Assembly: GCA_016284635.1 (NCBI GenBank)
Contig: JAEEPF010000022.1
Coordinates: 1 to 32,946, forward strand
Length of the DNA stretch: 32,946 nucleotides
DNA from: Prevotella sp.
GTDB lineage: Bacteria > Bacteroidota > Bacteroidia > Bacteroidales > Bacteroidaceae
Reading direction: 5' to 3'
Part shown: piece after piece, positions 29,747 to 29,827 of the stretch
Layout: every line of letters starts with the position of its first letter
Position numbering within the stretch: position 1 is the stretch's first letter
Program-made: the position numbers and the translations under genes
Notes under the pieces: generated by a model
What the model saw: the letters and a program-made list of their open reading frames with translations, nothing else
Told to the model about the DNA's origin: nothing
The model's database searches: none

Positions 29747-29827
29747 ATTCCCACTGTGGGAATGTTCTGTTCCCAGGCTGGGAACACCATATTCCCAGTA
29801 TGGGAACATTTCTTCCATCTGATGGAA
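29747..29827. repeat. Four phased palindromes (TTCCCA-n3-TGGGAA type)
   Basis: ATTCCCACTGTGGGAAT (29747-29763), GTTCCCAGGCTGGGAAC (29769-29785), TTCCCAGTATGGGAA (29792-29806), TTCCATCTGATGGAA (29813-29827). Centres at 29755, 29777, 29799, 29820. Confidence 0.95.

Follow-up and report, generated by a model that had tools for sequence, protein, structure and literature searches.

Four short palindromes in the window, the whole 32,946-nucleotide stretch of Prevotella sp. DNA that was analyzed, appear on balance to form the central part of a VapE-cassette derivative that contains no gene and combines an iteron-bearing, origin-like region with a 22-bp-phased palindrome array. Such a module is probably a protein-docking or replication-start site, not an ordinary gene switch. 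The array consists of three TTCCCAnnnTGGGAA palindromes followed by a fourth palindrome, at centre-to-centre spacings of 22, 22, and 21 bp. A preliminary description of the sequence had placed four palindromes with near-constant spacing at 29747-29827, and we found them exactly there. It had overlooked an outer palindrome, AGCCATGGGCA, that is degenerate in the window and a perfect AGCCTTAGGCT in orthologous copies, as well as the iteron blocks and single outer iterons around the array (Table 1). A search with TTCCCANNNTGGGAA, allowing at most one mismatch, gave three matches in the window, all within the array; shuffled sequences gave a mean of 0.03 and none reached three. No further strong 22-bp palindrome triple was found in the window outside the array. 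The array is predicted to fold strongly as single-strand hairpins (z -4.7). It had no match in Rfam, and we did not find a description of it in the literature.

Table 1 Features of the module and its surroundings in the window
Feature	Position	Strand	Remarks
Whole module, ~460 bases	29555-30012	.	Outer iteron, iteron block, palindromes, inverted block, outer iteron; no gene
Outer left iteron TTTACCTCTACAAA	29555-29568	+	Inverted-repeat search; kept in paralogues
Left iteron block, about six 11-bp units of TTCTACTAACC type	29631-29700	+	Direct and inverted repeats
Degenerate outer palindrome AGCCATGGGCA	29728-29738	.	22 bp upstream of palindrome 1
Palindrome 1 ATTCCCACTGTGGGAAT	29747-29763	.	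Perfect, 17 bp
Palindrome 2 GTTCCCAGGCTGGGAAC	29769-29785	.	Perfect, 17 bp
Palindrome 3 TTCCCAGTATGGGAA	29792-29806	.	6-3-6 layout
Palindrome 4 TTCCATCTGATGGAA	29813-29827	.	Perfect, 15 bp; 21 bp from palindrome 3; broken in both orthologues
Right block of seven inverted 11-bp iterons of GTAGAAGGAAA type	29880-29957	-	Direct and inverted repeats
Outer right iteron TTAGTAGAGGCAAA	29998-30011	-	Inverted repeat
Genes near the array	28452-29333; 30383-30802		

Searches of the window for VapE and DUF6078 gave no match, and the module is therefore gene-less. Two orthologous modules, L131 and L155, are 90-92% identical to it: in L131 it occupies the corresponding site, adjoining the SBP gene, and homology stops at position 30017, while L155 has the left flank in common with the window. 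The element is absent at the SBP orthologues of eleven further genomes (L306-L316). Within the genome that contains the window (3.67 Mb in 304 contigs), a DUF6078 gene and a vapE gene on contig C304 are separated by a module 79% identical to that of the window. The window module resembles an origin region and is not itself a complete replicon. It also has the terminal inverted repeats, non-coding character, and multiple copies of a MITE. At the few module ends whose flanks were read by eye there was no clear target-site duplication, a recombinase or transposase was not found in the vapE cassettes that share the module ends, and blastn against phage and plasmid sequences returned no match to the module. 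BrickBuilt, a MITE of Porphyromonas gingivalis (PMC4596501), is likewise a Bacteroidales element that encodes no gene and occurs in many copies; it too has inverted ends, and its internal tandem repeats are 23 nt long. However, its ends are short TIRs of 12 bp that resemble the termini of IS5-family elements, and its repeats form a minisatellite without spacers, whereas the module ends in 11-bp iteron blocks and contains 15-bp palindromes separated by 7-bp spacers. PINSR, a 188-bp repeat of Prevotella intermedia (PMC4755523), is similarly dispersed, intergenic, and restricted to a Prevotella lineage, but its description, which reports no terminal inverted repeats, sets it apart from the module. 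Another short repeat (29434-29531) lies directly upstream of the module in the window and has a 91%-identical copy at C218:27644-27741 of the same genome.

To assess constraint, we aligned the window array with the two orthologues, with the paralogues on C304 and C132 of its own genome, and with a further copy, L157. Across the three main palindromes 0/36 half-site bases had changed in all five comparisons, three of which (L131, L155, and L157) involve copies retrieved with a pattern demanding two exact units and two of which (C304 and C132) involve copies found by similarity search, while the rest of the module differed by 10-28% (Fisher p = 0.04 for the orthologues and 2e-5 to 5e-5 for the other comparisons). 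The palindrome centres differed at 1-5 of 9 positions. These findings agree with the earlier suggestion of dimer sites arranged in tandem along one face of the helix. The same description had proposed compensatory change across the dyads, and for this the alignments gave no support: no compensatory pairs occurred in the TTCCCA half-sites in any of the five comparisons, and the fourth palindrome was broken in both orthologues. Symmetry combined with a different half-site sequence is kept only between cassette types. Fixed half-sites that lack compensatory pairs fit sequence-specific binding by a dimer, and the alignments favour recognition of the sequence by a putative symmetric protein over structure alone. 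The maintenance of symmetry with other sequences between cassette types leaves room for hairpin formation.

The tie to VapE emerged from the neighbourhoods of related arrays. A vapE gene (VapE-like helicase, PF05272) stands beside the array at 17 array loci, some of the encoded proteins having a BT4734-like N-terminus (PF08800), and a DUF6078 gene is present at 12. The window's own genome has 15 VapE-domain matches, and several of these have an array and an iteron type to themselves. Among 99 vapE loci, 22-bp-phased palindrome triples of 6-3-6 layout lay upstream in 20 of the 87 that lack TTCCC; at other spacings the same upstream regions gave 0-3, except for 10 at 33 bp, and shuffled sequences gave 0.3%. 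The half-sites of these triples vary (TAAACT, CAAACT, TGTACA, AACGCT, GTGACA, TGTAAT, GAAACT, CGGACA, CGGACT, and others). Direct periodicity upstream of vapE peaked only at lags of 22 (36/98, a count that includes doubled 11-bp iterons) and 11 (15/98). In a VapE tree, 22-bp repeats accompanied 47/72 members of one clade and 0/27 of the other. The distance from array to vapE start ranges from 22 to 570 bp. The array-rich genome G463 has a single vapE, which adjoins a different array type, indicating that a TTCCC array can at present do without a matching vapE. HU-like genes were noticed at some vapE loci, and HU-HIG cassettes were considered. At L258 (9164-10510), 54 bp from the 3' end of vapE recur past an AAA-type ATPase gene, as if the cassette had acquired that gene at its end.

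The iterons of the module have counterparts on both sides of vapE. The lag-11 periodicity recurs downstream of the gene in 5/96 loci, and the sequence 3' of the vapE stop matches the upstream region in inverted orientation in 32/95 and in direct orientation in 5. For vapE units of ~400 aa, the inverted iterons begin 1-40 nt past the stop in most. Short direct repeats thus immediately adjoin an initiator-helicase gene, as they do at iteron origins of the SaPI/SCC type. A VapE profile matched the SaPI5 Rep entry 7pds in the PDB, annotated "Similar to D. nodosus vapE" (E 1e-10). In SaPI Rep and Cch2 of SCCmec, the C-terminal domain recognises iterons beside the helicase gene (PMC7581432), and this domain is also the part of VapE that varies with the iterons. 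Close VapE pairs at least 93% identical over the C-terminal 75 aa had an iteron Jaccard index of at least 0.25, and those at 91% or less had at most 0.086; the two groups separated without overlap (permutation 0/2000). Pairs with different iterons diverge at the C-terminus, as in one case with 95% identity in the core and 60% at the C-terminus. CTCTACT iterons, the type found in the window, pair with the C-termini of L133, L069, L326, L356, and L242, and GACATA iterons with another C-terminus type (L088, L317, L329, and L348), a pairing for which phylogeny is a confounder in this larger group. Such covariation is what would be expected if VapE were a self-loading initiator like SaPI Rep. Unlike the SaPI and SCCmec systems, VapE cassettes have 11-bp iterons that are inverted and lie on both sides of the gene, encode little beyond vapE and sometimes DUF6078, add a 22-bp palindrome array, and have gene-less relatives. 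An AlphaFold model of VapE was poor (pLDDT 51). The inverted ends of ~400-aa vapE units at L374, L352, L353, L246, and L247 share a hairpin with a conserved loop of approximately CCGATGTACAAAGG despite having different iterons.

The VapE C-terminus was also considered as the reader of the array and was rejected. Pairs with different C-termini have the same array type, and the closely similar VapEs of L352 and L353 have different arrays. L246 and L247, like L232 and L233, have arrays in common and different iterons, and the iteron types that accompany TTCCC arrays include CTCTACT, GACATA, CCTAACA, and CTCTCAT. Because array type does not follow the VapE C-terminus, the array is probably a second cis module with another reader, which would most simply be a symmetric dimer that binds cooperatively on one helical face. 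DUF6078, a small, cysteine-rich protein family, was present in all array-rich genomes and in 9/18 array-less ones (p ~0.001, a value that ignores phylogeny, counts one genome twice, G658 being G780, and comes from a co-occurrence analysis limited to named families); we treat it only as a lead.

Arrays of the window type are widely dispersed, within modules and also as smaller arrays of ~100 bp. Four additional ones are present in the window's own genome. In a doubled-pattern search of the genus they occurred in 103/399 genomes, with up to 80 array pairs per genome, and 296 had none; the reversed-pattern control returned 0. Nearly all array loci with a named genome belong to rumen Prevotella. 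Exactly three units make up 105 of the 159 distinct arrays, and column composition revealed a weak but symmetric outer palindrome on both sides. A long hairpin formed by units 1 and 3 as reverse complements was not supported, as same-orientation identity prevails. Intergenic arrays occur in every orientation of the neighbouring genes, and some arrays are inserted in frame in protein loops, with several species having the insertion in the same loop of one gene; among relatives, one such loop, in an acyltransferase, is intact, decayed, empty, or differently filled. In other species (L094, L277, and L279) this loop holds other palindromic inserts and looks like a general landing loop. Iterons of 11 bp were detected within 400 bp of 39/159 TTCCC arrays, compared to 14 for a lag of 12 and none for lags of 10 or 13; at the remaining 120 detectable iterons are missing. 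At least 10 of the 39 resemble the window in having inverted iterons on both sides and no vapE nearby in the locus. At L071, L113, L139, and L179, a second type of 22-bp-phased palindrome (CTTATT..AATAAG) sits in the same modules beside the TTCCC array. Five contigs listed as viral in IMG/VR (L183-L187) contain TTCCC arrays.

This distribution bears on three alternatives. The arrays could be dispersed sites of a chromosome-encoded protein (nucleoid-organising, partition-like, or a global regulator), selected for that protein and carried by cassettes incidentally. We regard this as unlikely, if the most credible of the three. It would account for half-sites that stay invariant while the centres drift, for phasing at exactly 22 bp, for a single half-site used genus-wide where other array types turn over, and for the co-occurrence with DUF6078, as counted without regard to phylogeny; yet the arrays are patchily present, and copies that sit in frame in dispensable loops of proteins, where relatives have empty or decayed alleles, look parasitic.

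The second alternative holds that the arrays are selfish palindromic elements without host function and that their proximity to vapE reflects target preference. Rickettsia palindromic elements are in-frame palindromic insertions in genes, and the TTCCC arrays resemble them in this respect, but differ in being three tandem palindromes with a 22-bp period (66 bp) that are iteron-flanked and vapE-associated. REP/BIME elements, which are linked to RAYT transposases (PMC3733652), are likewise arrayed, dispersed palindromes, sometimes intragenic; TTCCC arrays, however, lack a GTAG or CGTC tag, are strictly 22-bp-phased, and are linked to vapE. The high copy number, the recurrent insertion in one loop with its empty or decayed alleles, and the strong single-strand hairpins all suit a selfish element. 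Against this, target preference leaves unexplained why palindromes of unrelated sequence share the 22-bp geometry upstream of vapE in just one clade, and RAYT (Y1_Tnp, PF01797) is absent from the array-rich genomes G568, G485, G430, G551, and G678, which also disfavours mobilisation by a REP/RAYT system. We therefore think a purely selfish origin improbable. The third, a tandem operator on whose four sites a dimeric HTH repressor controls the adjacent gene, which takes up the operator reading of the preliminary description, is very improbable: tandem dyads on one helical face and invariant half-sites would suit it, but the arrays are dispersed over loci and genomes in every orientation and also inside coding loops, lie at widely varying distances from the vapE start, and are present at many unrelated genes while missing from the eleven further SBP orthologues. 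In the window, promoter-like matches around the array are at chance level, and the array is the core of a larger module like that upstream of vapE.

Returning to the VapE-cassette derivative, we propose the following model. A VapE cassette is a small, apparently mobile Prevotella unit whose one constant gene encodes a replication helicase of the self-loading type, in which a BT4734-like primase is often joined to the VapE-like domain. The iterons would be the origin to which VapE binds, as for SaPI Rep and Cch2, and a separate symmetric DNA-binding protein, distinct from the VapE C-terminus, would occupy the 22-bp array cooperatively, giving it a role in regulation, in a partition-like process, or as an accessory origin. 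The copy in the window has the two cis modules but lacks the gene, and any action on it would be in trans. A bolder extension, which we advance as speculation with little expectation that it holds in full, is that VapE cassettes are recombinase-free mobile elements that spread by initiator-helicase-driven replication, that their iteron ends and 22-bp arrays change sequence concertedly while geometry is kept, and that factors acting in trans move or maintain the gene-less copies, including arrays of no more than 66 bp.

Collectively, these data tie a conspicuous dispersed repeat of rumen Prevotella to VapE/VirE, a poorly understood multi-copy family often associated with a BT4734-like primase, and provide that family with candidate cis sites, including a correspondence between domain and iteron. 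If the cassettes replicate, VapE cassettes would be minimal replicons, and if the array has a reader of its own, it points to a further DNA-binding protein of rumen Prevotella.
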